From: Branchiostoma floridae
Taxonomy: Eukaryota > Chordata > Leptocardii > Amphioxiformes > Branchiostomatidae
Assembly (NCBI RefSeq): GCF_000003815.2
Contig: NC_049991.1
Coordinates: forward strand, 20,324,162 to 20,388,161
Direction: 5' to 3'
Length of the DNA: 64,000 nt
In this document: piece after piece, positions 1,926 to 37,542 of the stretch
Layout: every line of letters begins with the position of its first letter
Numbering within the stretch: the stretch's first letter is position 1
The notes under the pieces: generated by a model
What the model was told of the DNA's origin: nothing
The model's database searches: none
Seen by the model: only the letters and a program-made list of their open reading frames with translations
Made by a program: the position numbers and the translations under genes

Positions 1926-2785
1926 CTAACACAAGTGTTGATATCACTACTGTGTAACCTTCTTGTCTGATTGATGTATTACTCCGCGAGTGGGCATCCT
2001 CAAATAGATCCGAGCCCAAAACTGAACGGCTGCATGGACGCATGTTTTTAGCGGTGAGAAATTCGGTTTTGGCCAGCCGAACTGATATCAAAAGTTCGAT
2101 TGGTGAAAGCTTGCTTGTAACTGAAGAAATCAGCAGGTACAGTTTGACAGCCGCGCGCTAGGTCGGAGGTACACAGTCCTGGGTTCTGAGTGGTGCGGTT
2201 GTACGCTAGCAAGGAAAAAGTGCCTTTTGCTGGGATTGACTAATTGTAGCTTGTAATTGCTATGAACAACAAACCTTTGGATTCTAGTCATTGGCAATTT
2301 TTTTTCTATTATATAGAGTAAATCTGCTCAACAGAGAATGAAAAATCTGCTGACATTTCATGTAGCTTCATTATAAAGGCGACCATGTAAAACAAGAATT
2401 ATAACCTAGAAGTCTATGGGAAGAAGAAACTCATCAATGAGACCTGAAATGAATATGAAAAATATTCATAAAAAAATCAACGATTTGCGCTGGAGCAAAA
2501 AATTGAAAAGGTTTTATAACCGGGCGCCAGCCCGCATTTTTTGGCTGCAGATTACTCCGTCTACCTATTTCCGTTAACATGGTAACGGACGAGTCTACAT
2601 TTCCAAGGGGCGTTATTATTGTTCTTTTTGTTGTATCGTACTCTACTAGATATATAAGCCATTTGAAAGAGGACTAAGGTTCTATAGCTGTTTTTCTTGG
2701 TGTAAACTACTTCCAAGTTATTTTTTTGCTTCTCCGCCTTGTCCCGAACGCGGTCCCCGGCCATCAGCTGCAGTGCTCCTGTTAG

Positions 2786-3350
2786 CAGCACCTCCTTCGA
2801 CGCATTCGGAAACAGCAGCCAGACAGCGAGCAATGACCTAGACGGCTTCGATCTCCTGGGTTCCCGGTCAACGGGTGGCAGTGGCGACCTACTCGGGGGC
2901 GGCGTTTCCTCGCAGAACAACGTTGACGCGTTTAACATGATGGGGCTCGACCAGGGTTTACCCATGCAGCCGGGCGGCAAGCAGAAGACTCCGGAGACGT
3001 TCCTTGGCGAGAACTCGTCCCTGGTGAACCTGGATAACCTGATCAGCCAGCCCGCCGCCCCGCCACCCGTGCTACCGCCGCCGGCGCAACCGGCCGTGAC
3101 AAACCCCTTCCTCGGGATCGCGCCGCCCTCACAACCGCTCTCGCAACCGCCCCCGGCATCCAAGCCGGTCAGCAACCCATTCCAGGCTCAGATGGTCAGA
3201 CCGCCCACTATAAACCAGATGCGCTCGCCGCCCGGACCGCCCGTGCAACCGGGACTGGTAGGACTGGGCGGTGCGGACGGCCTCCCACAACCGCTCCTCC
3301 CCATGGGAACCACAGCACAACCGGCGCAGCCCACCAACCCCTTCTTATGA
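2786..3350 (+). CDS. Epsin, 3'-terminal coding exon, copy 1 (intact)
   Basis: This encodes the C-terminal tail of epsin, the endocytic adaptor that links membrane, AP-2, clathrin and EH-domain proteins. Visible features: an FDAFG/DLLG-rich start, a TPETFLG block followed by the clathrin box LVNLD (3021-3035; vertebrate epsins have LVDLD), then EH-binding NPF motifs at 3102-3110, 3174-3182 and 3336-3344, the last just before the stop. The chosen start follows GTTAG (acceptor AG 2784-2785) after a pyrimidine tract; an acceptor at CCATCAG (ends 2767) is an alternative. There is no ENTH domain or initiator here, so it is a downstream exon. Compared with other copies it has Asp for Gly in NNVDAFN. 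The nearest canonical poly(A) signal noted is about 2.9 kb downstream (6293), implying a very long 3' UTR or a weaker nearer signal. Confidence 0.88.
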
Positions 3351-4737
3351 AACTGTGACTACACTAGCGCTAGCTGTATAAGTGTGCATGGAAGAGGTAC
3401 AAGGTGGTAATTCCGCTCAGCCAAAAAAGGCTCGCAGAAAAATGCGAGGGTGTCGAAACATTTTAAGAGGGGGGGATGCTAGCAAAATGTGACCGCAAAA
3501 AAAACGTCCCTATCATTTCACGTGATCAACTTTCAACTTGTAGGGTCAGACGTTGGCAATTGTACACTAAAGATTTGTAGAAGTGTGAATTGTAGAAAAG
3601 TATGACATAGCCCAGCGTTTCTAGGGGAAAGGTCTGTCAGCTAGTAGAAGTGAATGAAGCATAAGATGTAGACAAGCCCTTGGTATTCTGTGCCCCCTGC
3701 ACATGCGCTGTGTGTTTGTAAATATCTATCGTACAGTTTGGGTCTCGGATGCCGACACGAGAGCTATGGTTCTTGTACTGAGATAGTGTGCTTTGCTTTC
3801 GAGTCTCAAGCCACGATGTTACCGTACCAGTCGACTCCATTTTTGTAAGAAAAGGCGTGAGAAAATGCGACTACAAATGATATCGCAGTCAGTGTGTTTC
3901 AACTACAAAGTGTGTTTCAACAGTTTTGGATGACATACTTTTAGTCTGGACTCGGACAACTCGATTCCGAGACTTAGGGAAGATGAAGGGAAGTGAAACA
4001 CACCATTATGCAGATGGTAGGAATAATGCTTCTAAATTCACAGAGTCTGATGCTATCTGGATATTTTGAAATATGGTTTCGTAGTACATGTAAATTGACA
4101 ATCAGGCTGTGCTAAGTTTGCACAATGCCAGGTGCTTTTAATTCTCATCTTCTCAGTCGCTCCTTGCAGAAATGGACGCACTTTTCCAGCTGATATGTTT
4201 TTTCCAAAATCTTATGCAGCAAACATGTTTCGATGGTTTCTTCTTGCTTGATCTTTTCCATGTTGAGGATACCAACTTTCTGTGTCAATGAGAGGGGGCA
4301 GAATATTTTTGATCACAAGCAATGTTTTACAGGATAATACATAGTTGTAAACTTCTTTTCACAACACTGTTTTACAAACACTCAAAGTACAAATCTTCAG
4401 CAATTGAATCAAGCAGTATGGAAAAACAATGTTTTTTCAATAGCATTTTTACTTGTTTTAACTGTTTTCAGAACAGGCATCAGACAGACTGAATTATATG
4501 TTTTAGCATGTAAGATGTAATATGAAAACTTAAATATTTAACAAAATGTACAAGTCTGCTCATATATCATAACACCCTCACGGCATACCATTTCTTCATA
4601 ACTTGAATGGTGCAAGCTGAAGACTGCTGCAAAAACTGTTTGGACACATTCTAAAGTAGACCCACAAGAAAGGGTGGTAAGCTGACTTGTCTTACTGGAG
4701 ACTCTGCTGTAACTTCCCAGCGAGACTTGATCATCTG

Positions 4738-4985
4738 ACGTGTCTTCTTACCAGTTGTCTTTACTGAACTCGAGTCTGACAGGAGACTTGTTTGACTCTG
4801 TCGTCTCTATCTTTACATTTGTCTTAACTCAAGTCTGTCTCGTCCAACTGGAAACTTGGTAGACTTGTACATTTCATCTTTCCAGTTGTTTTTACTGAAC
4901 TCAAGTCTGAGTCGTCTGACTGGAGACTTTGTCAACTGTGACATTTCTTCTTTACAGTTGTCTCGACTGAATTCGAGTCCAACTC
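4738..4985 (+). repeat. ~66-bp imperfect tandem repeats in the epsin 3' flank
   Basis: Four imperfect copies of a 61-70-bp unit share CAGTTGTCTTTACTGAACTC, GAGTCTGA and a GGAGACTT block. The same array lies at about 10070-10320, 15060-15312, 20090-20330, 29695-29940 and 34870-35128, so it predates the ~5 kb amplification. It would lie in the epsin 3' UTR if the distal AATAAA is used. Confidence 0.7.
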
Positions 4986-6352
4986 TGACTGAAAAATTTG
5001 GTTGACTCTGCTGTAACGACTAGCAGTATTCTGCTGTCAGCTTGATGTCTTCTGTTGTGTCTGACGTATTTTTGCGCAGTTAAACCAAATAATGCAGAGT
5101 CAAAATTGCACAAGAAGACCACTTTGGCGACCAATTAAGATAGTTGGTCACCATAGACAGGTTTCTTAATGCTTGTGGCAAACGTTATCTAAGGGACTAC
5201 CAAAACGTGTTCATATTGGGCAAGCCGTTCTTATGCAGAGGTGGTCTCTTGTACAGGTTTGACTATACGCAAAACAATAGTTGCCCAGAAACTTTGCTCA
5301 ACGTTACGTTTCAGACGAAATCCTGGTCCATGTCAAATTGCTACATAAGTCCATGTTAGGGAGTGACTCGGAAGTTCTTTTGCTATCCAAGACGATATTT
5401 TATTACCGGTACCAATACTTGCTACATTATGTCTTTCAGGAAGCTCAGAGAGTTTTACTTCAATTTAATCCACATTATTATTACCCTGCGGAAACTAATG
5501 TTGAGACTTGGTAGTTTTCGTTGTGGTTTTGTGAACATGAAAATTCCAGTGTTTGCAAATTGTCATCTCTAACATATATTGATATTGGTTTGTACCATAT
5601 GATGACTAGCTAATGTTGAATTTAACGTTATATCAATTCTTCCTATAGTCTTAGCGACTAAGATGCAGCTATGGGGTTTTTAAAGTCATATTTAAGATGG
5701 AAAGCTGAAATTGTATCTAAAGTAGCTCACTAGCATATTGTATGATGATTTTCAAAACTACTTTTTGACTTGTTTCATTTTCACTTTGTATGATTGAACA
5801 AGACTGACGATCTACTATTGTATATTATTATAATTATTATCGTACTGAAAACTATATTTTGGTAGAAGTAAAAAGAATACTGCCTCCTTCACGCACTAAA
5901 ATCTGATGTTGACTATCTCAAAAGTGTAAATGTAAAATTTGTCGATTGTACATGGGAGCGTTAGACTTGCTGTGCTTTGGGCTCCTTTTTGTAACTACGG
6001 ACTGAGGTTCACTTAAAACCCACACAGATTTAATTTATAATGATGACATCCTCTGATGCAAATAACTTGTTCTGCAATGATCAATGATCTGTTGTTAGAC
6101 AGGTCAGTTTTAAAATCCCGTGACATGTACATGGCCTGATATTATGACTTGTGTGGTAGTTTTGGCAATGGGCTTTTCTATTTTGGTAGCCGAGTGCAAG
6201 CTTTGTTGTGTATTTTTACCCAGTTGTCAGGAGCAGCAAGATTTGTTGTTATAAAGGTCGAAATTAAAAAAAATAAGCACCATGATGTTATCAATAAACT
6301 AACTTTGTGTGGACTATCATTATAAGTTGTGTTTTTTTTTGTCCTCTAGCGC

Positions 6353-6800
6353 TATATTGCACAGCCTATTTGCCAGTGAATTTCATGCAATTATCCGACT
6401 GGTGCAATAATGCAAAGTTATCAAGCTGGACCGCACCGGTTTGGGATTTTAGGATTCTGTGCAGTTAACAGAAGTGTGCGTTAATCCGTTGTGCAATTAA
6501 GTGACTTCTACTGTACCTATGTTGAGTTCAGTTGTCACAGGTTGCAGCATCTGTTCTATATATTAAAGTGGTCACATTTAAATGGATCCATCTACGTATT
6601 TGGATAGGCGTTTGGTGGAATAGAAGAATCGCCTACAGTAGAAGCCGGTTAATTGCACAACGGATTAACACACACTTCTGTTAACTGCACGGAATCCCAA
6701 ACCGATGCGGTCCAGCTAGATAATTTCGCATTATTGCACGAGCCGGATAATTGCATGGAATTTGCATGCAAATAGGAAGTGCAATTAAGCGGCTCCTAGA
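6353..6800. mobile_element. Inverted pogo-like MITE pair (U1)
   Basis: This is the same pair as at 1374-1834. MITE A (about 6353-6513) has lost its left terminus: the CTAGC before it is followed directly by internal MITE sequence. MITE B spans 6636 to about 6800. Confidence 0.65.
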
Positions 6801-6858
6801 GTAGTACTCTTTTTACATCATGCTTTTTGGAGACCTCGGGTGTTTTGCTTCCTTCTTC

Positions 6859-6890
6859 CTAGTCAGTCACCGTGTTGCTTGCGTGTGCGG
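6859..6890 (-). pseudogene. Zinc-finger C-terminal stub at junction U1/U2
   Basis: The minus strand encodes AHASNTVTD and a TAG stop. Similarity to the intact gene at 36994 ends at 6890. Confidence 0.8.
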
Positions 6891-7754
6891 CTAACACAAG
6901 TGTTGATATCACTACTGTGTAACCTTCTTGTCTGATTGATGTATTAGTCCGCGAGTGGGCATCCTCAAATAGATCCTAGCCAAAAACTGAACGGCTGCAC
7001 GGACGCATGTTTTTAGCGGTGAGAAATTCGGTTTTGGCCAGCCGAACTGATATCAAAAGTTAGATTGGTGAAAGCTTGCTTGTAACTGAAGAAATCAGCA
7101 GGTAAAGTTTGACAGCCGCGCGCTAGGTCGGAGGTACACAGTCCTGGGTTCTGAGTGGTGCGGTTGTACGCTAGCAAGGAAAAAGTGCCTTTTGCTGGGA
7201 TTGACTAATTGTAGCTTGTAATTGCTATTAACAACAAACCTATGGATTCTAGTCATTGGTAATTTTTTTCTATTATATAGAGTAAATCTGCTCAACAGAG
7301 AATGAAAAATCTGCTGACATTTCATGTAGCTTCATTATAAAGGCGACCATGTAAAACACGAATTATAACCTAGAAGTCTATGGGAAGAAGAAACTCATCA
7401 ATGAGACCTTAAATGAATATGAAAAATATTCATAAAAAAATCAACGATTTGCGCTGGAGCAAAAAATTGAAAAGGTTTTATAACCGGGAGCCAGCCCGCA
7501 TTTTTTGGCTGCAGATTACTCCGTCTACCTATTTCCGTTAACATGGTAACGGACGAGTCTACATTTCCAAGGGGCGTAATTATTGTTATTTTTCTTGTAT
7601 CGTACTCTACTAGATATATAAGCCATTTGAAAGAGGACTAAGGTTCTAAAGCTGTTTTTCTTGGTGTAAAGTACTTCCAAGTTATTTTTTTCCTTCTCCG
7701 CCTTGTCCCGAACGCGGCGCGGTCCCCGGCCATCAGCAGCAGTGCTCCTGTGAG

Positions 7755-8676
7755 CAGCACCTCCTTCGACGCATTCGGAAACAGCAGCCAGACGGCGAGC
7801 AACGACCTAGACGGCTTCGATCTCCTGGGATCGCGGTCCACGGGTGGTAGTGGTGACCTACTCGGGGGTGGCGTTTCCTCGCAGAACAACGTTGGCGCGT
7901 TTAACAGTCAGTCAGTCAGTCAGTCAAGTTTATTGCACAACGATTGTATCAGGTACAATGTATGGCAAGTAACATGTATAACTAGCAACTACGAACTATC
8001 TACATGAGTATACTAATCTAACATAATAGAAAATAAGGCGGCATAGTGTATTTTACATTGTTAAAGCACGACTTCTCTTTTGCATAGCATTATATATATA
8101 TTGGCCTAGGTGGACAGATATGGAGTCGGGACATGATAGTATTACATTGAATATTTCTCTACTTGTATTAGGTAGTGTTGTTCTGTTGTTACACATGGTC
8201 AATAACTTTTTCCTTTCTTCATCATAACAAGGGCATATCATCAGGAAATGGTATTCATCTTCAATACTGTCTTTGCAGATGGGACACATTCTCTTTTCGG
8301 ATGGTATATTTTTGTGACGACCCTTTTCAATTTCTAAACAATGTCCCTGGTGAACCTGGACAACCTGATCAGCCAGCCCGCCGCCCCGCCACCCGTGCTA
8401 CCGCCGCCGGCGCAACCAGCCGTCACGAACCCCTTCCTCGGGATCGCGCCGCCCTCACAACCGCTCTCGCAACCGCCCCCGGCAGCCAAGCCGGTCAGCA
8501 ACCCATTCCAGGCTCAGATGGTCAGACCGCCCACTATAAACCAGATGCGCTCGCCGCCCGGACCGCCCGTGCAGCCGGGACTGGTAGGACTGGGCGGTGC
8601 GGACGGCCTCCCACAACCGCTCCTCCCCATGGGAACCACAGCACAGCCGGCGCAGCCCACCAACCCCTTCTTATGA
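7755..8676 (+). pseudogene. Epsin terminal exon, copy 2 (interrupted)
   Basis: The 5' part (7755-7905) ends at NNVGAFN and the 3' part (8343-8676) resumes at SLVNLDNL. Between them a 437-bp LINE fragment replaces about 81 bp that in copy 1 spans roughly 2937-3017 (MMGLDQG through the TPETFLG block). The clathrin box and all three NPF motifs remain in the 3' part, but the inserted sequence contains stops in the epsin frame, so this copy cannot encode the normal tail. Confidence 0.85.
7906..8342 (-). mobile_element. 5'-truncated LINE fragment inside epsin exon copy 2
   Basis: The minus strand encodes the end of a non-LTR retrotransposon protein: a zinc-knuckle-like CPICKDSIEDEYHFLMICPC motif and a short tail, stop at 8053. 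An AATAAA on the minus strand and a terminal (GACT)5 tail at 7906-7926 form its 3' end. Such C-terminal C-x2-C...H...C motifs are common in CR1/L2-type elements. No target-site duplication is seen; the insertion coincides with an 81-bp deletion of the exon. Confidence 0.8.
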
Positions 8677-11600
8677 AACTGTGACTACGCTAGCGCTAGC
8701 TGTATAAGTGTGCATGGAAGAGGTACAAGGTGGTAATTCCGCTCAGCCAAAAACGCTCGCAGAAAAATGCGAGGGTGTTGAAACATTTTAAGAGGGGGGG
8801 AGGGGGATGCTAGCAAAATGTGACCGCAACAAAAACGTCCCAATCATTTCGCGTGATCAACTTTCAACTAGTAGGGTAAGACGTCGGCAATTGTACACTA
8901 AAGATTTGTAGAAGTGTGAATCGTAGAAAAAGTATGACATAGCCCAGCGTTTCTAGAGGAAAGGTCTGTCAGCTAGTAGAAGTGAATGAAGCATAAGATG
9001 TAGACAAGCCCTTGGTATTCTGTGCCCCCAGCACATGCGCTGTGTGTTTGTAAATATCTATCGTACAGTTTGGGTCTCGGATGCTGAAATGAGAGCTATG
9101 GTTCTTGTACTGAGATAGTGTGCTTTGCTTTCGAGTCTCAACCCACGATGTTACCGTACCAGTCGACTCCATTTTTGTAAGAAAAGGCGTGAGAAAATGC
9201 GACTACAAATGATATCACAGTCAGTGTGTTTCAACTACAAAGTGTGTTTCAACAGTTTTGAATGACATACTTTTAGTCTGGACTTGGACAACTCCATTCC
9301 GAGACTTAGGGAAGATGAAGGGAAGTGAAACACACCATTATGCAGATGGTAGGAATAATGCTTCTAAATTCACAGAGTCTGATGCTAACTGGATATTTTG
9401 AAATATGGTTTCGTAGTACATGTAAATTGACAATCAGGCTGTCCTAAGTTTGCACAATGCCAGGTGCTTTTAATTCTCATCTTCTCAGTCACTCCTTGCA
9501 GAAATGGACGCACTTTTCCAGCTGATATGTTTTTTTCTCCAAAATCTTGTGCAGCGAACATGTTTCAATGGTTTCTTCTTGCTTGATCTTTTCCATGTTG
9601 AGGATACCAACTTTCTGTGTCAGTGAGAGGGGACAGAATATTTTTGATCACAAGCAATGTTTTACAGGATAATACATAGTTGTAAACTTCTTTTCACAAC
9701 ACTGTTTTACAAACACTCAAAGTACAAATCTTCAGCACTTGAATCAAGCAGTATGGAAAAACAATGTTTGTTCAACAGCATTTTTACTTGTTTTAACTGT
9801 CAGAACAGGCATCAGACAGACTGAATTATATGTTTTACCATGTATGATGTAATATGAAAACTTAAATATTTAACAAAATGTACAAGTCTGCTCATATGTT
9901 ATAACACCCTCACGGCATACCATTTCTTCATAACTTAAATGGTGCAAGCTGAAGACTGCTGCAAAATCTGTTTGGACACATTCTAAAGTAGAGCCACAAG
10001 AAAGTGTTGTAAGCTGACTTGTCTTACTGGAGACTCTGCTGTAACTTCCCAGCGAGACTTGATCATCTGACGTGTCTTCTTACCAGTATTTCTTTACTGA
10101 ACTCGAGTCTGACAGGAGACTTGTTTGACTCTGTCGTTTCTATCTTTACATTTGTCTTAACTCAAGTCTGTCTCGTCCAACTGGAAACTTGGTAGACTTG
10201 TACCTTTCTTCTTTCCAGTTGTTTTTACTGAACTCAAGTCTGAGTCGTCTGACTGGAGACTTTGTCAACTGTGACATTTCTTCTTTACAGTTGTCTCGAC
10301 TGAACTCAAGTCCAACTCTGACTGAAAAATTTGGTTGACTCTGCTATAACGACTCGCAGTATTCTGCTGTCAGCTTGATGTCTTCTGTTGTGTCTGACGT
10401 ATTTTTGCGCAGTTAAACCAAATAATGCAGAGTCAAAATTGCACAAGAAGACCACTTTGGCGACCAATTAAGATAGTTGGTCACCATAGACAGGTTTCTT
10501 AATGCTTGTGGCAAACGTTATCTAAGGGACTACCAAAACGTGTTCATATTAGGCAAGCCGTTCTTATGCAGAGGTGGTCTCTTGTACAGGTTTGACTATA
10601 TGCAAAACAATAATTAGTACCCAGAAAGTTTGCTCAATGTTAAGTTTCAGACGAAATCCTGGTCCAAGTTAAATCGCTACATCAGTCCCTGTCAGGGAGT
10701 GACTCGGAAGTTGTTTTGCTATCCAAGACGATATTTTATTACCGGTACCAATACTTGCTACATTATGTCTTTCAGGAAGCTCAGAGAGTTTTACTTCAAT
10801 TTACTCCACATTATTATTACCCTGTGGAAACTAATGTTGAGACTTGGTAGTTTTCGTTGTGGTTTTGTGAACATGAAGATTCCAGTGTTTGCAAATTGTC
10901 ATCTCTAACATATATTGATATTGGTTTGTACCATATGATGACTAGCTAATGTTGAATTTAACGTTATATCAATTCTTCCTATAGTCTTAACGACTAAGAT
11001 GCAGCTATGGGGTTTTTAAAGTCATATTTAAGATGGAAAGCTGAAATTGTATCTAAAGTAGCTCAATAGCATATTGTATGATGATTTTCAAAACTACTTT
11101 TTGACTTGTTTCATTTTCACTTTGTATGATTGAACAAGACTGACGATCTACTTTATTGTATATCATTATAATTATTATCGTACTGAAAACCATATTTTGG
11201 TAGAAGTAAAAAGAATACTGCCTCCTTCACGCACTAAAATCTGATGTTGACTATGTCAAAAGTGTAAATGTAAAATTTGTCGATTGTACATGGGAGCGTT
11301 AGACTTGCTGTGCTTTGGGCTCCTTTTTGTAACTACGGACTGAGGTTCGCTTAAAACCCACACAGATTTAATTTATGATGATGACATCCTCTGATGCAAA
11401 TAACATGTTCTGCAATGATCAATGATCTGTTATTAGACAGCTCAGTTTTAAAATCCTGTGACATGTACATGGCCTAATATTATGACTTGTGTGGTAGTTT
11501 TGGCAAGGGGCTTTTCTATTTTGGTAGCCGAGTGCAAGCTTTGTTGTGTATTTTTACCCAGTTGTCAGGAGCAGCAAGATTTGTTGTTATAAAGGTCGAA

Positions 11601-11707
11601 ATTAAAAAAATAAGCACCATGATGTTATCAATAAACTAACTTTGTGTGGACTATCATTACAACTTGTGTTTTTTTTTTTGTCCGCTACCACTTCACAAAG
11701 GTTGATA

Positions 11708-12167
11708 CAGTAGAGGTCGCTTTATTGCACAGCCTATTTGCCAGTGAATTTCATGCAATTATCCGACTGGTGCAATAATGCAAAGTTATCAAGCTGGACC
11801 GCATCGGTTTGGGATTTTAGGATTCTGTGCAGTTAACAGAAGTGTGCGTTAATCCGTTGTGCAATTAAGTGACTTCTACTGTACCTATGTTGAGTTGTCG
11901 TCACAGGTTGCAGCATCTGTTCTATATATTAAAGTGGTCACATTTCAATGGACCCTTAAAGGTATTTGGATTGGCGTTTGGTGGAATAGAAGAATTGACT
12001 ACAGTAGAAGCCGGTTAATTGCACAACGGATTAACACACACTTCTGTTAACTGCACGGAATCCCAAACCCGTGCGGTCCAGCTAGATAATTTCGCATAAT
12101 TGCACGAGCCGGATAATTGCATGGAATTTGCTGGCAAATAGGAAGTGCAATTAAGCGGCTCCTAGAG
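11708..12167. mobile_element. Inverted pogo-like MITE pair (U2)
   Basis: MITE A spans 11708-11881 and is TA-flanked. MITE B spans 12002 to about 12167 in the opposite orientation. Same insertions as in the other units. Confidence 0.7.
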
Positions 12168-12224
12168 TAGTACTCTTTTTACATCATGCTTTTTGGAGAC
12201 CTCAGGTGTTTTGCTTCCTTCTTC

Positions 12225-12256
12225 CTAGTCAGTCACCGTGTTGCTTGCGTGTGCGG
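12225..12256 (-). pseudogene. Zinc-finger C-terminal stub at junction U2/U3
   Basis: The minus strand encodes AHASNTVTD and a TAG stop, fused at 12256/12257 to epsin-intron sequence. Confidence 0.8.
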
Positions 12257-13112
12257 CTAACACAAGTGTTGATGGCACTACTGTGTAACCTTCTTGTCTC
12301 ATTGATGTATTACTCCGCGAGTGGGCACCCTGAAGTAGATCCGAGCCAAAAACTGAACGGCTGCATGGACGCATGTTTTTAGCGGTGAGAAATTCGGTTT
12401 TGGCCAGCCGAACTGATATCAAAAGTTCGATTGGTGAAAGCTTGCTTGTACCTGAAGAAATCAGCAGGTAAAGTTTGACAGCCGCGCGCTAGGTCGGAGG
12501 TACACAGCGCTGGGTTCTGAGTGGTGCGGTTGTACGCTAGCAAGGAAAAAGTGCCTTTTGCTGGGATTGACTAATTGTAGTTGTAATTGCTATTAACAAC
12601 AAACCTATAGATTCTAGTCATTGGCAATTTTTTTCTATTATATAGAGTAAATCTGCTCAACAGAGAATGAAAAATCTGCTGACATTTCATGTAGCTTCAT
12701 TATAAAGGCGACCATGTAAAACAATAATTATAATCTAGAAGACTATGGGAAGAAGAAAATTATCAATGAGACCTTAAATGAATATGAAAAATATTCATAA
12801 AAATCAACGATTTGCGCTGGAGCAAAAAATTGAAAAGGTTTTATAACCGGGCGCCAGCCCGCATTTTTTGGCTGCAGATTACTCCGTCTACCTATTTCCG
12901 TTAACATGGTAACGGACGAGTCTACATTTCCAAGGGGCGTAATTATTGTTATTTTTCTTGTATCGTACTCTACTAGATATATAAGCCATTTGAAAGATGA
13001 CTAAGGTTCTAAAGCTGTTTTTCTTGGTGTAAACTACTTCCAAGTTATTTTTTGCCTTCTCCGCCTTGTCCCGAACGCGGTCCCCGGCCATCAGCAGCAG
13101 TGCTCCTGTGAG

Positions 13113-13677
13113 CAGCACCTCCTTCGACGCATTCGGAAACAGCAGCCAGACGGCGAGCAACGATCTAGACGGCTTCGATCTCCTGGGATCGCGGTCCACG
13201 GGAGGTATGGGCGACCTACTCGGGGGCGGCGTTTCCTCGCAGAACAACGTTGGCGCGTTTAACATGATGGGGCTCGACCAGGGTTTACCGATGCAGCCGG
13301 GCGGCAAGCAGAAGACGCCGGAGACGTTCCTTGGCGAGAACTCGTCACTGGTGAACCTGGACAACCTGATCAGCCAGCCGGCCGCCCCGNNNNNNNNNNN
13401 NNNNNNNNNNNNNNNNNNNNNNNNNNNNNNNNNNNNNNNNNNNNNNNNNNNNNNNNNNNNNNNNNNNNNNNNNNNNNNNNNNNNNNNNNAGCCGGTCAGC
13501 AACCCATTCCAGGCTCAGATGGTCAGACCGCCCACTATAAACCAGATGCGCTCGCCGCCCGGACCGCCCGTGCAGCCGGGACTGGTAGGACTGGGCGGTG
13601 CGGACGGCCTCCCACAACCGCTCCTCCCCATGGGAACCACAGCACAGCCGGCGCAGCCCACCAACCCCTTCTTATGA
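13113..13677 (+). CDS. Epsin terminal exon, copy 3 (open, contains assembly gap)
   Basis: The frame is open on both sides of 100 N and keeps LVNLD upstream plus the second and third NPF motifs downstream; the first NPF falls in the gap. The matching stretch of copies 1 and 2 is 100 bp by my count, so the gap need not disturb the frame. A private GGMGDLL replaces GGSGDLL. The acceptor before 13113 reads GTGAG rather than the GTTAG of copy 1. Confidence 0.8.
13390..13489. other. Assembly gap (100 N) in epsin exon copy 3
   Basis: There are exactly 100 N in the GC-rich proline segment of the exon. A round 100 is a common placeholder, so its true length is unknown even though it equals the expected length. 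Confidence 0.95.
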
Positions 13678-25415: not shown

Positions 25416-26100
25416 CAGCAGCTTAAAGATGTCGTAAATTATTTTTAAAACCCCCTTAAAACTTGTTTAAAGTTCACGTTTATTTAATCTAAAGCCTCTT
25501 TACGTCTCATATACGTTTGCATTAAGAGGATTATAACGTGTGTTTAGGTGCCTTTTCAGCAGCTTAAAGTTGCCATAAATACTTATTAAAACGCCCTTAA
25601 GACATGTTTAAACTTCACGTTTATTTGATCTAAAGCCTCTTTACGTCTCATATACGTGTGCATTAAGAGGATTATAACGTGTGTTTAGATGCCTTTTCAG
25701 CAGCTTAAAGTTGCCATAAATACCTATTAAAACGCTCTTAAGACATGTTTAAACTTCACGTTTATTTGATCTAAAGCCTCTTTACGTCTCATATACGTGG
25801 GCATTAAGAGGATTATAACGTGTGTTTAGGTGCATTTTAAGCAGCTTAAAGTTGCCATTAATACCTATTAAAACGCTCTTAAGACATGTTTAAACTTCAC
25901 GTTTATTTGATCTAAAGGCTCTTTACGTCTCATATACGTGTGCATTAACATGATTTAATGTGTCTATATTGTTCTTTTTAGCAGCTAAAAGATGTCATAA
26001 ATACGTACTAAAACACCCTTAAAACAAGTTTAAAGTTCCCTCTCTACTTTTAATATACATGTGCATTAAGGTGATTATAAGGTGTGGATAAGCGCATTTT
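25416..26100. repeat. 141-bp tandem repeat array (element-internal array 1)
   Basis: The anchor CAGCAGCTTAAAG recurs at about 25416, 25557, 25698, 25839 and 25979, a period of 140-141 bp. The middle copies are nearly identical and the outer ones are degenerate. Each copy contains a TTTACGTCTCATATACGTG segment and several TTAAG motifs resembling the element's termini. Confidence 0.85.
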
Positions 26101-26157
26101 AGCAGAATAATCATAAGCACATTTTAAAGCAAGAAAATACAATGGATGAAACTTTGA

Positions 26158-27080
26158 AATTTTATTGAATTACGAGAAAATATTACATGGAAAAGTGGAA
26201 AAAACTACAGCCTACTAGGTATTCGTGGCCTTTTATTCTGATGTAGTCGGCAGTTGAAGCAATCACAACGGCTGTGTAATTCCGTGCAGTAGTCAACAGT
26301 TCCATTTCCAGTGTCGGCCGAAGCGTCTCGGCGTAAGTTAAAAGGAGCACACATGTACAGTTCCATCTGGTCACCACATGAATAAGAATCCGGTAAGATC
26401 TAGAGTAGTGGCCGATATGACTCGTGTTGTTGGATGGTCTTGGATTCTGTGGACGCGAAACATGTTCAGCTTGCAGTCTCGGCTTCTATTAATCCGGATG
26501 GTACAAGTGCCGTGATTTCCCATTCTGTGTCGATTTCCAACAGCATCAACTTGTACAGAATGATAGCCACCTCCTCTCTTTGCGTCAAATTCCGTCACCG
26601 GGGGTCCTAGGCTGTAAAAGCAGTGTCGCGGCCACAACTTGCGGGTTAGAACAGGTCCAAACTTTCTTCAATACTTCTTTTCAAATGAACGCTTGGAAAA
26701 TAACCGCCCCTTCTCGTATGGCCGGTAAATTTGAATACCCCACTCTTTTCTGCCATTGGATACATCCTATCACATGGCACAGCTATGCCACATACGGATC
26801 CGGAGGCACCCGCCCCATGCCGAATCAACGCTGAATAAATTTACATCTAGCCTGCCAACGCATATCAGATTATCACCAAACCAAAACAAACACGAGCAAC
26901 ACGAGAAGTCACTGCCTGTGTGCCCGGACTGTTGACTGTTCTTTCTCGACGCTTGCTTGTAGATAAAGAAATTTTTAGAAATCGTACATTTACTTGCATT
27001 AAGAACTGCTCGCCGATAATAGTAAGAAATACATAGAGAAAACACCACTCACTACACAAAACGCTATATCTACTCTCCAA
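26158..27080 (-). pseudogene. Possible decayed minus-strand coding segment inside the transposon
   Basis: Consecutive minus-strand frames at 26371-26637 and 26183-26377 would form one longer reading frame if a single small frameshift near 26375 is assumed. An AATAAA on the minus strand lies at about 26158-26163, some 20 bp after the second stop. The predicted peptides contain several Cys but match no family I recognise. It could be a captured host gene fragment, a relic of the element's own gene, or chance. Confidence 0.25.
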
Positions 27081-27193
27081 GCAGAGGTTGAATCGCGCAG
27101 ATATAGTAGTAGTCGGGAAAATTACACGGGCGCTGGTGTAATTTTTGACTACTACAGTACCTATCTGCGCGATTCAACCCCTGCTTGGAGAGT
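27072..27193. mobile_element. Hairpin MITE inside the transposon
   Basis: ACTCTCCAAGCAGAGGTTGA and its inverse at 27174-27193 are nearly perfect inverted repeats that close on a short loop near 27130. An ACGCTAT direct repeat lies on both sides. Just to the right (about 27220-27310) is a second, poorer hairpin with AAGCAGAAGTTGAGTCGC against GGGTCAACTT. Confidence 0.6.
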
Positions 27194-27472
27194 ACGCTAT
27201 TACTACCACATCCTTATCCTTCAAGCAGAAGTTGAGTCGCTGAGAATTTAATAGTAGAAATCGGGATTTCTACCGGCTCTTAGCTCAAGGGTCAACTTGC
27301 CGCCTGAGTTAGACCCTGGAAATTTAGAACATATATGCGGTATATTAGAAGGAAAGGGTCTCCTCCTGTTTGCATAAACTGCGATTCAAACATGCCGTTC
27401 AGCAAAAACTTTTGAGACGGTATAAGCCAATAAATAAAACGGGGGTAGTGCCCCCTGTTCACTTTAACTGCC

Positions 27473-28855
27473 GGATTCAAAGATTAAACATGTCGTATGT
27501 TCATCAGAAATACACAACATTTCATATACGTCTTGGCAACATATAAGCTAAACGGGGAAGGTCTCCCCTAGTTCGCTTAAACTACACATATTCAAGGGTT
27601 AAACCTGCATTATGTTATCCAGAAATACGCAATATTTCATATACGTTTGGGCAACATATAAGCTAAACGGGGGAGGTCTCCCCTAGTTCGCTTAAACTGC
27701 GCGGATTCAAAGATGAAACATGTCGTATGTTCAACAGAAATACGCAATATTTCATATACGTTTTGGCAACATATAAGCTTAACGGGGGAGGTCTCCCCTA
27801 GTTCGCTTAAACTGCACGGATTCAAAGATTAAACATGCATTATGTTATCCAGAAATACGCAATATTTCATATACATCTTGGCAATATATAAGCTAAACGG
27901 GGGAGGTCTCCCCTAGTTCGCTTAAACTGCGCGGATTCAAAGATTAAACATGCCGTATGTTCAAAAGAAATACGCAATATTTCATATATGTTTTGGCAAC
28001 ATATAAGCTAAACGGGGGAGGTCACCCCTAGTTCGCTTAAACTTTGCGGATTCAAAGATTAAACATGTCGTATGTTTAACAGAAATACGCAACATTTCAT
28101 ATACGTTTTGACAACATATAAGCTAAACGGGGGAGGTCTCCCCTAGTTCGCTTAAACTGCGCGGATTCAAAGATTAAACATGTCGTATGTTCAACAGAAA
28201 TACGCAACATTTCATATACGTTTTGGCTACATATAAGCTAAACACGGGAAGGTCTCCCCTAGTTCGCTTAAACTGCGCGGATTCAAAGATTAAACATGTC
28301 GTATGTTCAACAGAAATACGCAACATTTCATATACGTTTTGGCTACATATAAGCTAAACACGGGAAGGTCTCCCCTAGTTCGCTTAAACTGCGCGGATTC
28401 AAAGATTAAACATGTCGTATGTTTTCCAGAAATACGCAATATTTCATGTACGTCTTGGCAACATATAAGGTAAACGGGGGAGGTCGCCCCTAGTTCGCTT
28501 AAACTGCGCGGATTCAAAGATTAAACATGTCGTATGTTCAACAGAAATACGCAACATTTCATATACGTTTTGGCTACATATAAGCTAAACACGGGAAGGT
28601 CTCCCCTAGTTCGCTTAAACTGCGCGGATTCAAAGATTAAACATGTCGTATGTTCAACAGAAATACGCAACATTTCATATACGTTTTGGCTACATATAAG
28701 CTAAACACGGGAAGGTCTCCCCTAGTTCGCTTAAACTGCGCGGATTCAAAGATTAAACATGTCGTATGTTTTCCAGAAATACGCAATATTTCATGTACGT
28801 CTTGGCAACATGTAAGCTAAAGAAGCTAGCTAGGTCACCCCTTCTTTGCGAAATA
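27473..28855. repeat. 115-bp tandem repeat array (element-internal array 2)
   Basis: The anchor CGGATTCAAAGATTAAACAT recurs at about 27473, 27589, 27703, 27818, 27933, 28048, 28163, 28279, 28395, 28510, 28626 and 28742, giving 12 copies spaced 114-116 bp. Late copies alternate GGCTACATATAAG and GGCAACATATAAG variants, a hint of higher-order amplification. There are no unique spacers, so it is not a CRISPR. Confidence 0.9.
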
Positions 28856-31299
28856 CATTATATATGCCGTATATTCAACAGCAAAACGCAACATTCTATA
28901 TAACGTAAGGGAGCGCATATATATAAGCTAAACGTGAGAGGTCTACTCTGTTCGAATTTAACCTTGCGCACAGAAAGAAGTAATACGTCATATGCTTTCG
29001 GAAAAGCTAAAAAACACAGATGATTTATTGTATTTAACTTTGCTGAGGTATTAACATAACATTTTGTACCAGAAAACGCAATTGTAAGTTCTGACTGTAA
29101 ATCTTGCAACTGTTATAAAACAGATGACGCAATGCTTAATCTAACACCTAAATAGCCAAGGTAAGTCTGGTAAACATATATTTTGTAACAGAGAAACGGC
29201 ATTTGTCAGTTTTAACAGAAAATATTACCACAGTGGTAAAACAGTAAAACGGATTATTTTCTAAAACTTTTTGAGACATTTAAGTTGTCTTTTCGTCATA
29301 CTAAAATGCATTCAAAATTCACGTAAGGAAACACGAAACATTAAGCTACATTTACACACTCTGAAATCTTACGTAAAGGCCAGATGTATGTTTCCGGTGC
29401 CTTTAATAGATCTTAAAATCTGCTGAAATATTTATCCGCCTTTAAGGGCTTTATACGTATCTCTGAAACTTTGCTTAAATAACTGTTTTCGTGCTGTGTA
29501 CCAGTCTGCTCATATGTCACAACACCCTCATGGCATACCATTTCTTCTTAACTTGAATGGTGCAAGCTGAAGACTGCTGCAAAAACTGTTTGGACACATT
29601 CTAAAGTAGACCCACAAGAAAGTGTTGTAAGCTGACTTGTCTTACTGGAGACTCTGCTGTAACTTCCCAGCTAGACTTGATCATCTGACGTGTCTTCTTA
29701 CCAGTTGTCTTTGCTGAACTCGAGTCTGACAGGAGACTTGTTTGACTCTGTCGTTTCTATCTTTACATTTGTCTTAACTCAAGTCTGTCTTGTCCAACTG
29801 GAAACTTGGTAGACTTGTACATTTCTTCTTTCTAGTTGTCTTTACTGAACTCAAGTTTGAGTCGTCTGACTGGAGACTTTGTCAACTGTGACATTTCTTC
29901 TTTACAGTTGTCTTGACTGAAATCAAGTCCAACTTATCTGACAGGAAAGACAGTATTCTGCTGTCAGCTTGATGTCTTCTGTTGTGTCTGACGTATTTTT
30001 GCGCAGTTAAACCAAATAATGTATAGTCAAAATTGCACAAGAAGACCACTTTGGCGACCAATTAAGATAGTTGGTCACCATAGACAGGTTTCTTGATGCT
30101 TGTGGCAAACGTTATCTAAGGGACTACCAAAACGTGGTCATATTGGGCAAGCCGGTCTTATGCAGAGGTGGTCTCTTGTACAGGTTTGACTATATGCAAA
30201 ACAATAATTAGTACCCAGAAACTTTGCTAAACATTAAGTTTCAGATGAAATCCTTGACCATGTCAAATCGCTACATCAGTCCATGTCAGGGAGTGACTCG
30301 GAAGTTCTTTTGCTATCCAAGACGACATTTTATTACCGGTACCAATATACTTGCTACATTATGTCTTTCAGGAAGCTCAGAGAGTTTTACTTCAATTTAC
30401 TCCACATTATTATTACCCTGTGGAAACTAATGTCGAGACTCGGTAGTTTTCGTTGTGGTTTTGTGAACATGAAAATTCCAGTGTTTGCAAATTGTCACCT
30501 CTAACATATATTGATATTGGTTTGTACCATATGATGACTAGCTAATGTTGAATTTAACGTTATATCAATTCTTCCTATAGTCTTAACGACTAAGATGCAG
30601 CTATGGGGTTTTCAAAGTCATATTTAAGATGGAAAGCTGAAATTGTATCTAAAGTAGCTCACTAGCATATTGTATGATGATTTTCAAAACTACTTTTTGA
30701 CTTGTTTCATTTTCACTTTGTATGATTGAACAAGACTGACGATCTACTATTGTATATTATTATAATTATTATCGTACTGAAAACTATATTTTGGTAGAAG
30801 TAAAAAGAATACTGCCTCCTTCACGCACTAAAATCTGATGTTGACTATGTCCAAAGTGTAAATGTAAAATTTGTCGATTGTACATGGGAGCGTTAGACTT
30901 GCTGTGCTTTGGGCTCCTTTTTGTAACTACGGACTGAGGTTCGCTTAAAACCCACACAGATTTAATTTATAATGATGACATCCTCTGATGCAAATAACTT
31001 GTTCTGCAATGATCAATGATCTGTTATTAGACAGCTCAGTTTTAAAATCCTGTGACATGTACATGGCCTGATATTATGACTTGTGTGGTAGTTTTGGCAA
31101 TGGGCTTTTCTATTTTGGTAGCCGAGTGCAAGCTTTGTTGTGTATTTTTACCCAGTTGTCAGGAGCAGCAAGATTTGTTGTTATAAAGGTCGAAATTAAA
31201 AAAAATAAGCACCATGATGTTATCAATAAACTAACTTTGTGTGGACTATCATTATAAGTTGTGTTTTTTTTGTCTCCTAGCACTTCACAAAGGTTGATA

Positions 31300-31762
31300 C
31301 AGTAGAGGCCGCTTAATTGCACGGCCTATTTGCCAGTAAATTTCGTGCAATAATCCGACTGGTGCCATAATGCAAAATTATCAAGCTGGACCACACCGGT
31401 TTGGGATTTTAGGATTCTGTGCAGCTAACAGAAGTGTGCGTTAATCCGTTGTGCAATTAAGTGGCTTCTACTGTACCTATGTAGAGTTCAGATGTCACAG
31501 GTTGCAGCATCTGTTCTATATATTAAAGTGGTCACATTTTTAAATGGATCCATCTACGTATTTGGATAGGCGTTTGGTGGATAGAAGAATTGACTACAGT
31601 AGAAGCCGGTTAATTGCACAACGGATTAAAACACACTTCTGTTAACAGCAAGGAATCCCAAACCGGTGCGGTCCAGCTAGATAATTTCGCATTATTGCAC
31701 GAGCCGGATTATTGCATTGAATTTGCTGGCAAACAGGAAGTGCAATTAAGCGGCTCCTAGAG
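31300..31762. mobile_element. Inverted pogo-like MITE pair (U5)
   Basis: Same two insertions as in the other units; MITE A starts at the CAG of GATACAGTAGAGG and MITE B ends at CTAGAG. Confidence 0.7.
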
Positions 31763-31819
31763 TAGTACTCTTTTTACATCATGCTTTTTGGAGACCTCGG
31801 GTGTTTTGCTTCCTTCTTC

Positions 31820-31851
31820 CTAGTCAGTCACCGTGTTGCTTGCGTGTGCGG
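31820..31851 (-). pseudogene. Zinc-finger C-terminal stub at junction U5/U6
   Basis: The minus strand encodes AHASNTVTD and a TAG stop. This is the last fused junction before the intact gene. Confidence 0.8.
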
Positions 31852-32716
31852 CTAACACAAGTGTTGATGGCACTACTGTGTACTAACCTTCTTGTCTGAT
31901 TGATGTATTACTCCGCGAGTGGACACCCTAAAATAGATCCGAGCCAAAAACTGAACGGCTGCATGGACGCATGTTTTTAGCGGTGAGAAATTCGCTTTTG
32001 GCCAGCCGAACTGATATCAAAAGTTCGATTGGTGAAAGCTTGCTTGTAACTGAAGAAATCAGCCGGTAAAGTTTGACAGCCGCGCGCTAGGTCGGAGGTA
32101 CACAGTCCTGGGTTCTGAGTGGTGCGGTTGTACGCTAGCAAGGAAAAAGTGCCTTTGGCTTTTGCTGGGATTGACTAATTGTAGCTTGTAATTGCTATTA
32201 ACAACAAACCTATGGATTCTAGTCATTGGCAATTTTTTTCTATTATATAGAGTAAATCTGCTCAACAGAGAATGAAAAATCTGCTGACATTTCATGTAGC
32301 TTCATTATAAAGGCGACTATGTAAAACACGAATTATAACCTAGAAGTCTATGGGAAGAAGAAACTCATCAATGAGACCTTAAATGAATATGAAAAATATT
32401 CATAGAAAATCAACGATTTGCGCTGGAGCAAAAAATTGAAAAGGTTTTATAACCGGGCGCCAGCCCGCATTTTTTGGCTGCAGATTACTCCGTCTACCTA
32501 TTTCCGTTAACATGGTAACGGACGAGTCTACATTTCCAAGGGGCGTAATTATTGTTATTTTTCTTGTATCGTACTCTACTAGATGTATAAGACATTGGAA
32601 AGAGGACTAAGGTTCTAAAGCTGTTTTTCTTGGTGTAAACTACTTCCAAGTTATTTTTTTGCCTTCTCCGCCTTGTCCCGAACGCGGTCCCCGGCCATCA
32701 GCAGCAGTGCCCCTGT

Positions 32717-32910
32717 AAAGCCCCCTTTATAAATCAAGAATTTAGCTCGGCCGAGATGTCAGCGAGCTTTAAATTACGAGGAGGCATGACCCTGATGCCT
32801 ACGAACAAATGGCAGAGTTTCTTCGTCGGCATCAGGGTCATACCTCCTTGTAATTTAGAGCTCGCTGACAACTCGGCCGAGCTAAACTCTTGATTTGTAA
32901 AAGGGGCTTT
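32717..32910. mobile_element. 194-bp hairpin MITE at the epsin exon 6 acceptor
   Basis: AAAGCCCCCTTTATAAATCA and its inverse (ending GGGGCTTT) are inverted repeats of about 80 bp with a short loop near 32800-32825. It lies between CCTGT and AGCAGCACC, exactly at the putative intron/exon border. TA on both sides suggests a Tc1/mariner-type target. The right end regenerates GGCTTTAG before the exon, so an AG acceptor is kept. Confidence 0.85.
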
Positions 32911-32912
32911 AG

Positions 32913-33481
32913 CAGCACCTCCTTCGATGCATTCGGAAACAGCAGCCAGACGGCGAGCAACGACCTAGACGGCTTCGATCTCCTGGGATCGCGGTCCACG
33001 GGTGGCAGTGGAGACCTACTCGGGGGCGGCGTTTCCTCGCAGAACAACGTTGGCGCGTTTAACATGATGGGGCTCGACCAGGGTTTACCGATGCAGCCGG
33101 GCGGAAAGCAGAAGACGCCGGAGACGTTCCTTGGCGAGAACTCGTCCCTGGTGAACCTGGACAACCTGATCAGCCAGCCAGCCCGCCGCCCCGCCACCCG
33201 TGCTACCGCCGCCGGCGCAACCAGCCGTCACGAACCCCTTCCTCGGGATCGCGCCGCCCTCACAACCGCTCTCGCAACCGCCCCCGGCAGCCAAGCTGGT
33301 CAGCAACCCATTCCAGGCTCAGATGGTCAGACCGCCCACTATAAACCAGATGCGCTCGCCGCCCGGACCGCCCGTGCAGCCGGGACTGGTAGGACTGGGC
33401 GGCGCGGACGGCCTCCCACAACCGCTCCTCCCCATGGGAACCACAGCACAGCCTGCGCAGCCCACCAACCCCTTCTTATGA
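32913..33481 (+). pseudogene. Epsin terminal exon, copy 6 (frameshifted)
   Basis: The exon matches the others until LISQP, where an additional 4 bp (CCAGCCAGCC at about 33173-33182 instead of CCAGCC) shift the frame: translation continues as ARRPATRATA in place of AAPPPVLPPP. The first two NPF motifs and the NPFL end exist only in the other frame (33200-33481). In that frame SKP/AKP reads AKL, another private change. A hairpin MITE sits directly upstream. Confidence 0.85.
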
Positions 33482-36473
33482 AACTGTGACGACACTAGCG
33501 CTAGCTGTATAAGTGTGCATGGAAGAGGTACAAGGTGGTAATTCCGCTCAGCCAAAAACGCTCGCAGAAAAATGCGAGGGTGTTGAAACATTTTAAGGGG
33601 GAGGGAGGGGGGATGCTAGCAAAATGTGACCGCAAAAAAAAACGTCCCCATCATTTCACGTGATCAACTTTCAACTTGTAGGGTAAGACGTCGGCAATTG
33701 TACACTAAAGATTTGTAGAAGTGTGAATTGTAGAAAAAGTATGACATAGCCCAGCGTTTCTAGGGGAAAGGTCTGTCAGCTAGTAGAAGTGAATGAAGCA
33801 TAAGATGTAGACAAGCCCTTGGTATTCTGTGCCCCCTGCACATGCGCTGTGTGTTTGTAAATATCTATCGTACAGTTTGGGTCTCGGATGCTGACACGAG
33901 AGCTATGGTTCTTGTACTGAGATAGTGTGCTTTGCTTTCGAGTCTCAAGCCACGATGTTACCGTACCAGTCGACTCCATTTTTGTAAGAAAAGGCGTGAG
34001 AAAATGCGACTACAAATGATATCGCAGTCAGCGTGTTTCAACTACAAAGTGTGTTTCAACAGTTTTGGATGGCATACTTGTAGTCTGGACTTGGACAACT
34101 CGATTCCGAGACTTAGGGAAGATGAAGGGAAGTGAAACACACCATTATGCAGATGGTAGGAATAATGCTTCTAAATTCACAGAGTCTGATGCTAACTGGA
34201 TATTTTGAAATATGGTTTCGTAGTACATGTAAATTGACAATCAGGCTGTGCTAAGTTTGCACAATGCCAGGTGCTTTTAATTCTCATCTTCTCAGTCACT
34301 CCCCTCAGAAATGGACGCACTTTTCCAACTGATATGTTTTTTTCCCAAATCTTGTGCAGCGAACATGTTTCAATGGTTTCTTCTTGCTTGATCTTTTCCA
34401 TGTTGAGGATACCAACTTTCTGTGTCAATGAGAGGGGACAGAATATTTTTGATCACAAGCAATGTTTTACAGGATAATACATAGTTGTAAACTTCTTTTC
34501 ACAACACTGTCTTACAAACACTCAAAGTACAAAGCGTCAGCAATTGAATCAAGCAGTATGGAAAAACAATGTTTGTTCAACAGCATTTTTACATGTTTTA
34601 ACTGTCAGAACAGGCATCAGACAGACTGAATTATATGTTTTACCATGTATGATGTAATATGAAAACTTAAATATTTAACAAAATGTACAAGAATGCTCAT
34701 ATATCATAACACCCTCATGGCATACCATTTCTTCATAACTTGAATGATGCAAGTTGAAGACTGCTGCAAAATCTGTTTGGACACGTTCTAAAGTAGACCC
34801 ACAAGAAAGTGTTGTAAGCTGACTTGTCTTACTGGAGACTCTGCTGTAACTTCCCAGCGAGACTTGATCATCTGACATGTCTTCTTACCAGTTGTCTTTA
34901 CTGAACTCGAGTCTGACAGGAGACTTGTTTGACTCTGTCGTTTCTATCTTCACATTTGTCTTAACTCAAGTCTGTCTCGTCCAACTGGAAACTTGGTAGA
35001 CTTGTACATATCTTCTTTCCAGTTGTTTTTACTGAACTCAAGTCTGAGTCGTCTGACTGGAGACTTTGTCAACTGTGACATTTCTTCTTTACAGCTGTCT
35101 CGACTGAATTCGAGCCCAACTCTGACTTAAAAATTTGGTTGACTTTGCTGTAACGACTCGCAGTATTCTGCTGTCAGCTTGATGTCTTCTGTTGTGTCTG
35201 ACATATTTTTGCGCAGTTAAGCCAAATAATGTATAGTCAAAATTGCACAAGAAGACCACTTTGGCGACCAATTAAGATAGTTGGTCACCATAGACAGGTT
35301 TCTTAATGCTTGTGGCAAACGTTATCTAAGGGACTACCAAAACGTGGTCATATTGGGCAAGCCGTTCTTATGCAGAGGTGGTCTCTTGTACAGGTTTGAC
35401 TATATGCAAAACAATAATTACCCAGAAACTTTGCTCAATGTTAAGTTTCAGACAAAATCCTGGTCCAAGTTAAATCGCTACATCAGTCCCTGTCAGGGAG
35501 TGACTCGGAAGTTTGTTTGCTATCCAAGACGATATTATATTGCCGGTACCAATACTTGCTACATTATGTCTTTCAGGAAGCTCAGAGAGTCTTACTTCAA
35601 TTTACTCCACATTATTATTACCCTGTGGAAACTAATGTTGAGACTTTGTAGTTTTCGTTGTGGTTTTGTGAACATGAAAATTCCAGTGTTTGCAAATTGT
35701 CATCTCTAACATATATTGATATTGGTTTGTACCATATGATGACTAGCTAATGTTGAATTTAACGTTATATCAATTCTTCCTATAGTCTTAACGACTAAGA
35801 TGCAGCTATGGGGTTTTTAAAGTCATATTTAAGATGGAAAGCTGAAATTGTATCTAAAGTAGCTCACTAGCATATTGTATGATGATTTTCAAAACTACTG
35901 TTTGACTTGTTTCATTTTCACTTTGTATGATTGAACAAGACTGACGATCTACTATTGTATATTATTATAATTATTATCGTACTGAAAACTATATTTTGGT
36001 AGAAGTAAAAAGAATACTGCCTCCTTCACGCACTAAAATTTGATGTTGACTATGTCCAAAGTGTAAATGTAAAATTTGTCGATTGTACATGGGAGCGTTA
36101 GACTTGCTGTGCTTTGGGCTCCTTTTTGTAACTACGGACTGAGGTTCGCTTAAAACCCACACAGATTTAATTTATAATGATGACATCCTCTGATGCAGCG
36201 AATTTAGCTTATTCTGCAATGATCTGTTATTAGACAGCTCAGTTTTAAAATCCCGTGACATGTCCATGGCCTGATATTATGACTTGTGTGGTAGTTTTGG
36301 CAATGGGCTTTTCTATTTTGGTAGCCGAGTGCAAGCTTTGTTGTGTATTTTTACCCAGTTGTCAGGAGCAGCAAGATATATAGGTAATCAATAAAACCAA
36401 ACTTTGTGGGGGAAAATCCATAGAAAACGTAGGGTTTTTTTTTTTTTTCATCCAACTAACAGCTAGGTTGAAA

Positions 36474-36936
36474 CAGAAGAGCGCCGCTTAATTGCACGGC
36501 CTATTTGCCAGTGAATTTCATGCAATTATCCGACTGGTGCAATAATGCAAAGTTATCAAGCTGGACCACACCGGTTTGGGATTTTAGGATTCTGTGCAGT
36601 CAACAGAAGTGTGCGTTAATCCGTTGTGCAATTAAGTGACTTCTACTGTACCTATGTTGAGTTCAGTTGTCACAGGTTGCAGCATCTGTTCTATATATTA
36701 AAGTGGTCACATTTAAATGGATCCATCTACGTATTTGGATAGGCCTTTGGTGGAATAGAAGAATTGACTACAGCAGAAGCCAGTTAATTGCACAACAGAT
36801 TAACACACACTTCTGTTAACTGCACGGAATCCCAAACCGGTGCGGTCCAGCTAGATAATTTCGCATTATTGCACGAGCCGGATAATTGCATGGAATTTGC
36901 TGGCAAATAGGAAGTGCAATTAAGCGGCTCCTAGAG
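36474..36936. mobile_element. Inverted pogo-like MITE pair (U6)
   Basis: MITE A begins in a degraded terminus near 36474. MITE B starts at CAGCAGAAGCC (about 36771) and ends near 36936. In this unit the pair lies in the 3' flank of the intact minus-strand zinc-finger gene. Confidence 0.65.
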
Positions 36937-36993
36937 TAGTACTCTTTTTACATCATGCTTTTTGGAGACCTCAGGTGTTTTGCTTCCTTCTTC

Positions 36994-37542
36994 CTAGTCA
37001 GTCACTGTGTTGCTTGCGTGTGCGGCGATGTGCTGTATTAAGTCAGGCATTTGTCCTGTACAGTAGCCACACACTTCGCATCGGTGCGTTTCAATGGCGT
37101 GTCTATTAGCCATGTGTCGCTTCACCCTGGACTTGTAGGCTGCGGAAAAGTCGCAGAACTCACATTTGTGGAGTTTCTCACCGGTGTGCCTAGCAATGTG
37201 CCGCTTGAAACGACTTTTATCAATGGTGGAGTAACCGCACACCGTACAGCTCAGTGAATTCATCATGTGAGTAAGGAGGTGGACCTGCAAATCTTGTTTG
37301 ATCGGTGACGAGCAGTCGCACCGTGAGCACGCGTGCGGCCTGTAGTTGCTGTGTCTCCTGACGTGCTTCGCGAGCTGGTCCCTGGTCTTTCCGGAGTAGT
37401 CGCAGAGCTCGCAGTGGAACGGTTTCTCGTCGCTGTGCTTCGCCCAGATGTGATTCGCTAGGTGGCGCTTCTTGGTGGTGGAGAACCCGCAGTGGCCGCA
37501 CAGAAATGGTCTCTCACCGGTGTGCCTCGCCATGGTGTGCTC
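36994..37542 (-). CDS. C2H2 zinc-finger protein, 3' coding exon (fingers 5b-11)
   Basis: Read from 37542 this exon starts EHTMARHTGERPF and completes the finger begun in the upstream exon. Six complete C2H2 fingers follow: FLCGHC..H..H, FHCELC, HACSRC, LSCTVC, HKCEFC and HRCEVC, then AHASNTVTD and a TAG stop. Linkers such as HTGERPF and HTGEKLH are typical of DNA-binding arrays. The acceptor is CCCTCCCCTGAAG|GAG with AG at 37544-37543. Joined to 38462-38920 the frame is continuous (336 codons). The gene converges on the epsin array, and its last nine codons are what is repeated at each array junction. Target DNA is unknown. Confidence 0.85.
   Translation of the reverse strand, partial: EHTMARHTGERPFLCGHCGFSTTKKRHLANHIWAKHSDEKPFHCELCDYSGKTRDQLAKHVRRHSNYRPHACSRCDCSSPIKQDLQVHLLTHMMNSLSCTVCGYSTIDKSRFKRHIARHTGEKLHKCEFCDFSAAYKSRVKRHMANRHAIETHRCEVCGYCTGQMPDLIQHIAAHASNTVTD

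Follow-up and report, generated by a model that had tools for sequence, protein, structure and literature searches.

A tandem array of an epsin-type terminal exon, together with the tip of a convergent zinc-finger gene, in Branchiostoma floridae

The closest described systems to the locus analysed here are the epsins themselves, tandem (segmental) duplications of part of a gene, and sets of alternative last exons. In known epsins, a disordered tail binds clathrin, AP-2 and, by way of its NPF motifs, EH domains, as set out in PMC4161027. Tandem duplication of partial genes is already a known kind of event, and the array described below is a further example of it. A literature query joining tandem duplication, terminal exon and alternative last exon returned no match for that wording, and the papers found for epsin in amphioxus do not appear to deal with this array. 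The account that we consider probable is an ordinary recent tandem duplication of a partial gene, grown by unequal crossing-over and made up mostly of passenger copies, and below we set the evidence for it beside three other readings.

The window, by which we mean the whole 64,000-nucleotide stretch of DNA analysed, had been predicted to hold six direct repeats of about 5 kb at 1926-37025 together with the tail of a seventh. Self-BLAST of the window bore out the six repeats, with direct repeats running over bases 1-37026 at 92-99% identity over kilobases; the alignment between units spans about 5 kb, which rules out chance. With the phase set from the right edge of the array, units end at 1926, 6891, 12257, 17247, 22260, 31852 and 37026. 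A uniform size of about 5 kb holds for most of the full units (4965-5366 bp), but not for U5, which measures 9592 bp owing to a 4.25-kb insert and 5342 bp without it. The partial seventh unit also exists, although its position had to be revised: it is the 3' part of an earlier unit, it lies at the left edge and is free of the exon, and the array runs past that edge of the window. The features are as follows, with U denoting units and E their exon copies.

1-1926, plus strand: U0, 3' part of an earlier unit; 3'UTR-like, with AATAAA at 1297 and a zinc-finger tail at its end.
1927-6891, plus strand: U1, with open exon E1 at about 2768-3350 (start set from the probable acceptor).
6892-12257, plus strand: U2, with broken exon E2 and an antisense LINE-like fragment at 7907-8342.
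12258-17247, plus strand: U3; its exon E3 stays open and in frame on either side of a 100-N gap (13390-13489).
17248-22260, plus strand: U4, with open exon E4; probable acceptor 18086-18091, stop 18675-18677, AATAAA 21635.
22261-31852, plus strand: U5, with exon E5 broken by a LINE-like fragment as in E2; contains the 4.25-kb insert.
25247-29496, no strand assigned: the insert in U5 (4250 bp), with a target duplication of 5 bp (TGTAC) and terminal inverted repeats that are imperfect.
31853-37026, plus strand: U6, with exon E6 interrupted and frameshifted; its 3'UTR end differs from that of the other units.
36994-37707, minus strand: C2H2 zinc-finger open reading frame that converges on the array and has its last 10 codons and stop inside the unit.
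4826-4979, 10159-10312, 15150-15303, 20167-20320, 29769-29948 and 34963-35098: a 72-bp tandem duplication (about 2 copies) in the 3'UTR-like part of all six full units.

The identity of the repeated exon is supported by its motifs and by an alignment, both of which point to the C-terminal exon of an epsin-type gene, present once per full unit (anchors at 2796, 7765, 13123, 18120, 23133 and 32923), as had been proposed. FDAFG, LDGFDL, LVNLD and NPF motifs occur in the exon of each of the six units, and TPETFLG is retained in four of the six, E2 and E5 having lost it to an insertion. E1 and E4 each carry three NPF motifs, the last at the C-terminus; in E3 two are visible, and the first would fall inside the N gap. 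When the exon from TPETFLG to its end was aligned with the tail of vertebrate epsin-1, it scored 196, whereas 500 shuffles averaged 69 and reached 105 at most; this comparison is weaker support than a database match would be. Neither of the two libraries searched, Pfam and the PDB sequences, named the exon or gave a useful match; two PDB matches (E 0.017 and 1.1) were put down to sequence composition or chance and rejected.

The ENTH, UIM and DPW parts of an epsin are expected in upstream exons, that is, to the left of the window. If instead a full epsin gene ended in every unit, the array would be a gene-family cluster, a reading for which we found no supporting point and which we regard as extremely improbable. 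Translation of one unit length in six frames gave no Pfam match to ENTH and none to UIM, a short motif that is easily missed, and both were likewise missing from the 4.25-kb insert; codons for DPW (GAYCCNTGG) are absent from both strands of the window. The 5-kb spacing of the exons and the common junction directly after a zinc-finger tail also speak against it. A complete epsin gene per unit was thus rejected on the content of the one unit scanned, in agreement with the original prediction. Matches to DUF4386, in an open reading frame of a unit, and to SOTI, in the six-frame scan, fell below the Pfam cut-offs and were taken as chance, and Rfam gave no match at gathering scores over the whole window.

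The amplified block had been described as the last exon with its flanks. The exon stands; the block itself is better described as the terminal exon, a probable 3'UTR of 3 kb and the tip of the next gene. In U4, about 840 bp that include a pyrimidine-rich stretch, and that we infer to be intron, precede a presumptive acceptor, CATCAG (18086-18091). The coding exon runs to a stop codon at 18675-18677 and, with AATAAA at 21635, the 3'UTR would be about 3 kb long. The string CAATAAACTAA is found in six of the seven units, and U6 has AATAAA in another context. By eye, two short similar GTGCAATTAAGTGACTTCTACTG-type stretches can be seen in the 3' flank of U4 (21715-22170) and at the matching place in other units; they look like small inverted-repeat elements.

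Each unit closes on a piece of the neighbouring gene. On the minus strand, the last 33 bases of all seven units read AAHASNTVTD followed by a stop, which is the C-terminus of the zinc-finger open reading frame at 36994-37707, and after 37026 that frame continues in place of a next unit. Among open reading frames of at least 120 aa in bases 1-38000, zinc fingers occur only in this right-edge frame. Since the unit tails are the C-terminus of the zinc-finger protein and the sequence at 37026 runs on into its frame, the right edge would most simply be the ancestral arrangement, with the epsin and zinc-finger genes convergent, and the founding break would lie in the last codons of the zinc-finger gene. 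The junction at which GTGTGCGGC meets TAACACAAG is the same at all six internal unit boundaries, which makes a single founding duplication likely. To the right of the array, a second C2H2 zinc-finger open reading frame (38429-38989, minus strand) neighbours the first. Further along, a 596-aa open frame at 48459-50249 contains a reverse transcriptase domain (RVT_1, E 1.5e-38) and is probably a non-LTR element, and minisatellites lie at 39315-39629 (33-bp units) and 52868-53126 (37-bp units).

Three of the six exons, namely E1, E4 and, read across its gap, E3, are open over their full length. In both E2 and E5, the same 436-bp fragment, an antisense and LINE-like piece, replaces 79 bp of the exon; read on the minus strand, it gives MCPICKDSIEDEYHFL, which we take to resemble LINE reverse transcriptases in their C-terminal region, and it ends in a GACT-type repeat. 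In E6, a palindromic insert of about 190 bp splits the exon (about 32717-32908), and a 4-bp duplication shifts its frame. The 4.25-kb insert of U5 looks like a non-autonomous DNA transposon and contains two minisatellites, one of 141 bp (4.4 copies) and one of 115 bp (12 copies). Scanned with stops read as X, it gave no Pfam match above cut-off; those to ORMDL (21.2 bits against 27), NleE (20.1 against 27), DMRT5_DMB and ROS_MUCR were below their cut-offs and taken as chance.

The coding changes between copies are strongly biased towards synonymous ones. Over 161 exon codons, we counted 27 synonymous nucleotide changes (128 sites) against 5 non-synonymous ones (355 sites), a ratio of 0.067 (binomial P about 1e-11), with each change scored against the commonest codon in a treeless count and mutation bias outside the model. 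This count covers five copies, E5 being left out as identical to E2 there and the codons in the E3 gap being set aside; it excludes 28 codons lacking in E2 and E5 and the first codons of the exon. In the 28 further codons, compared among E1, E3, E4 and E6, all changes were synonymous (6 against 0); six codons adjoining the acceptor, compared among E1-E4, added one of each kind. Changes private to the broken copies (E2/E5 and E6) comprise 6 synonymous and 1 non-synonymous (P about 0.002). Because changes are nearly all synonymous, in broken copies too, it appears that the copies diverged mostly as functional sequence, under constraint, and broke late.

The same bias could be read as a sign that one epsin gene draws on the intact copies as alternative terminal exons, which selection maintains and gene conversion keeps uniform, and three copies do retain an open frame, a probable acceptor region and a polyA signal. 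We nevertheless hold this reading to be improbable: the peptides are nearly identical, with no diversification visible, three of the six copies are broken, and a bias found even among the changes that only broken copies carry (6 against 1) does not demonstrate the present use of every copy. An extended form of it, in which interchangeable terminal exons of one endocytic adaptor gene are kept by selection and conversion while the copy number of the 3' exon and 3'UTR tunes epsin expression, strikes us as very improbable.

How many units a single chromosome carries bears on the remaining alternative. Outside identical runs, units differ by 3.3-4.8%, a range raised in part by the fragment that U2 and U5 carry, pairwise figures for either of these against other units being too high through misalignment across it. 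The unit alignment contains nine exact runs of at least 300 bp, which measure 372-1609 bp, the longest being shared by U2 and U5. The longest run to arise per shuffle, over 200 shuffles, had a median length of 255 bp and reached 404 bp at most; six of the nine observed runs exceed every shuffle and three do not. Zero-difference windows of 200 bp number 27 of 362 where 0.3 were expected, and windows with 1-3 differences are also in excess, which indicates that the pattern is not purely two-state. The lowest divergences between units fall at a three-unit offset (U1/U4 2.38%, U2/U5 2.40%), the third such pair, U3/U6, standing at 3.69%. This offset fits unequal crossing-over by three units and also two haplotypes placed in tandem, and exact tracts amid 3-5% divergence would likewise point either to recent exchange or to assembly mosaicism. 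Non-crossover conversion tracts in B. floridae are, according to PMC12500494, mostly under 200 bp, shorter than the tracts found here.

Within windows of 250 alignment columns, 19 of which could be scored out of 23, each of the 19 holds 4-7 distinct versions of the sequence, more than two alleles of one exon would give; once versions no more than one base apart are merged, five or more remain in 16 of the 19, four in two and two in one. Given one diploid animal, this would place at least three copies on one chromosome over most of the unit. The possibility allowed for at the outset, that a single unit had been multiplied by an assembly error, is unlikely with up to seven versions of a segment present. 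The exact number of units is uncertain, and there may be fewer than shown, part of the copy number being alleles or assembly mosaics.

A mosaic of haplotypes in the assembly, in which a true array of about 3-4 units per haplotype appears twice, two diverged haplotypes having been placed in series and joined at the E3 gap or by way of mosaic contigs, is a possible explanation that we think unlikely yet take seriously. It would account for the two lowest pairwise divergences lying three units apart, and for the common insertion of E2 and E5, which sits within the 1609-bp identical tract. By raw count, seven of the nine exact runs of at least 372 bp link the contigs to the left and right of the gap, and the 3-5% divergence is near the allelic divergence reported for amphioxus (3.2-4.2%, PMC12500494). 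Identical tracts amid such divergence are also expected from two haplotypes end to end, which counts against duplication on a single chromosome, and the sole N gap within the array sits in E3, where a false join could hide. Other comparisons run the opposite way. U0 is nearest to U5 (3.16%), with U3 second (3.43%), contrary to the allelic pairing that a mosaic predicts; the left part of U3 is closer to U4 (2.83%) than to U6 (3.09%); two of the nine exact runs lie within one contig. In addition, the E3 gap takes the place of exactly the 100 bases that are missing by comparison with the homologous exon (3062/3163 against 13389/13490), with the reading frame unbroken from one side to the other, although 100 N may be a default length, another of the window's three gaps being also 100 N.

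Tandem duplication of a partial gene on the chromosome thus remains the reading that we favour. The duplicated segment would have comprised the end of the last intron, the coding exon, a 3'UTR of about 3 kb with its polyA signal, intergenic DNA and the last codons of the convergent zinc-finger gene. Duplicated once in tandem, it would then have multiplied by unequal crossing-over between units and haplotypes, and the units would recently have exchanged sequence. Of the intact terminal exons, a transcript that runs in from the left would be expected to use a single one, most copies being passengers, and the unneeded ones would be in the course of being broken by inserted elements. The ENTH-bearing epsin gene to the left of the array, the choice of the copy that is spliced, and an origin of the copies from alleles recent enough for them to retain the constraint of a functional exon, are parts of this account that we infer.

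The locus offers a clean case of partial-gene amplification, in which the right breakpoint, the founding junction, the exchange between units and the decay of copies can all be read from the sequence. It also calls for caution, for last-exon copies of this sort could be annotated as several epsin genes and could inflate duplication counts in a heterozygous draft genome.

Compared with the C-terminal region of epsins (EPN), the exon has the same order: TPETFLG, then LVNLD, then three NPF motifs, the last of them at the C-terminus. The full protein has ENTH, UIM and DPW as well, whereas only the terminal exon was found in the sequence searched here. With alternative last exons the array shares repeated terminal exons that have an acceptor region and a polyA signal, but almost the same peptide is encoded by all copies, and half of them are broken. 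With tandem partial-gene duplications it has in common one repeated junction, head-to-tail units, a partial three-unit pattern, identical tracts and decaying copies, and it differs in taking in only a terminal exon and the tip of its convergent neighbour.
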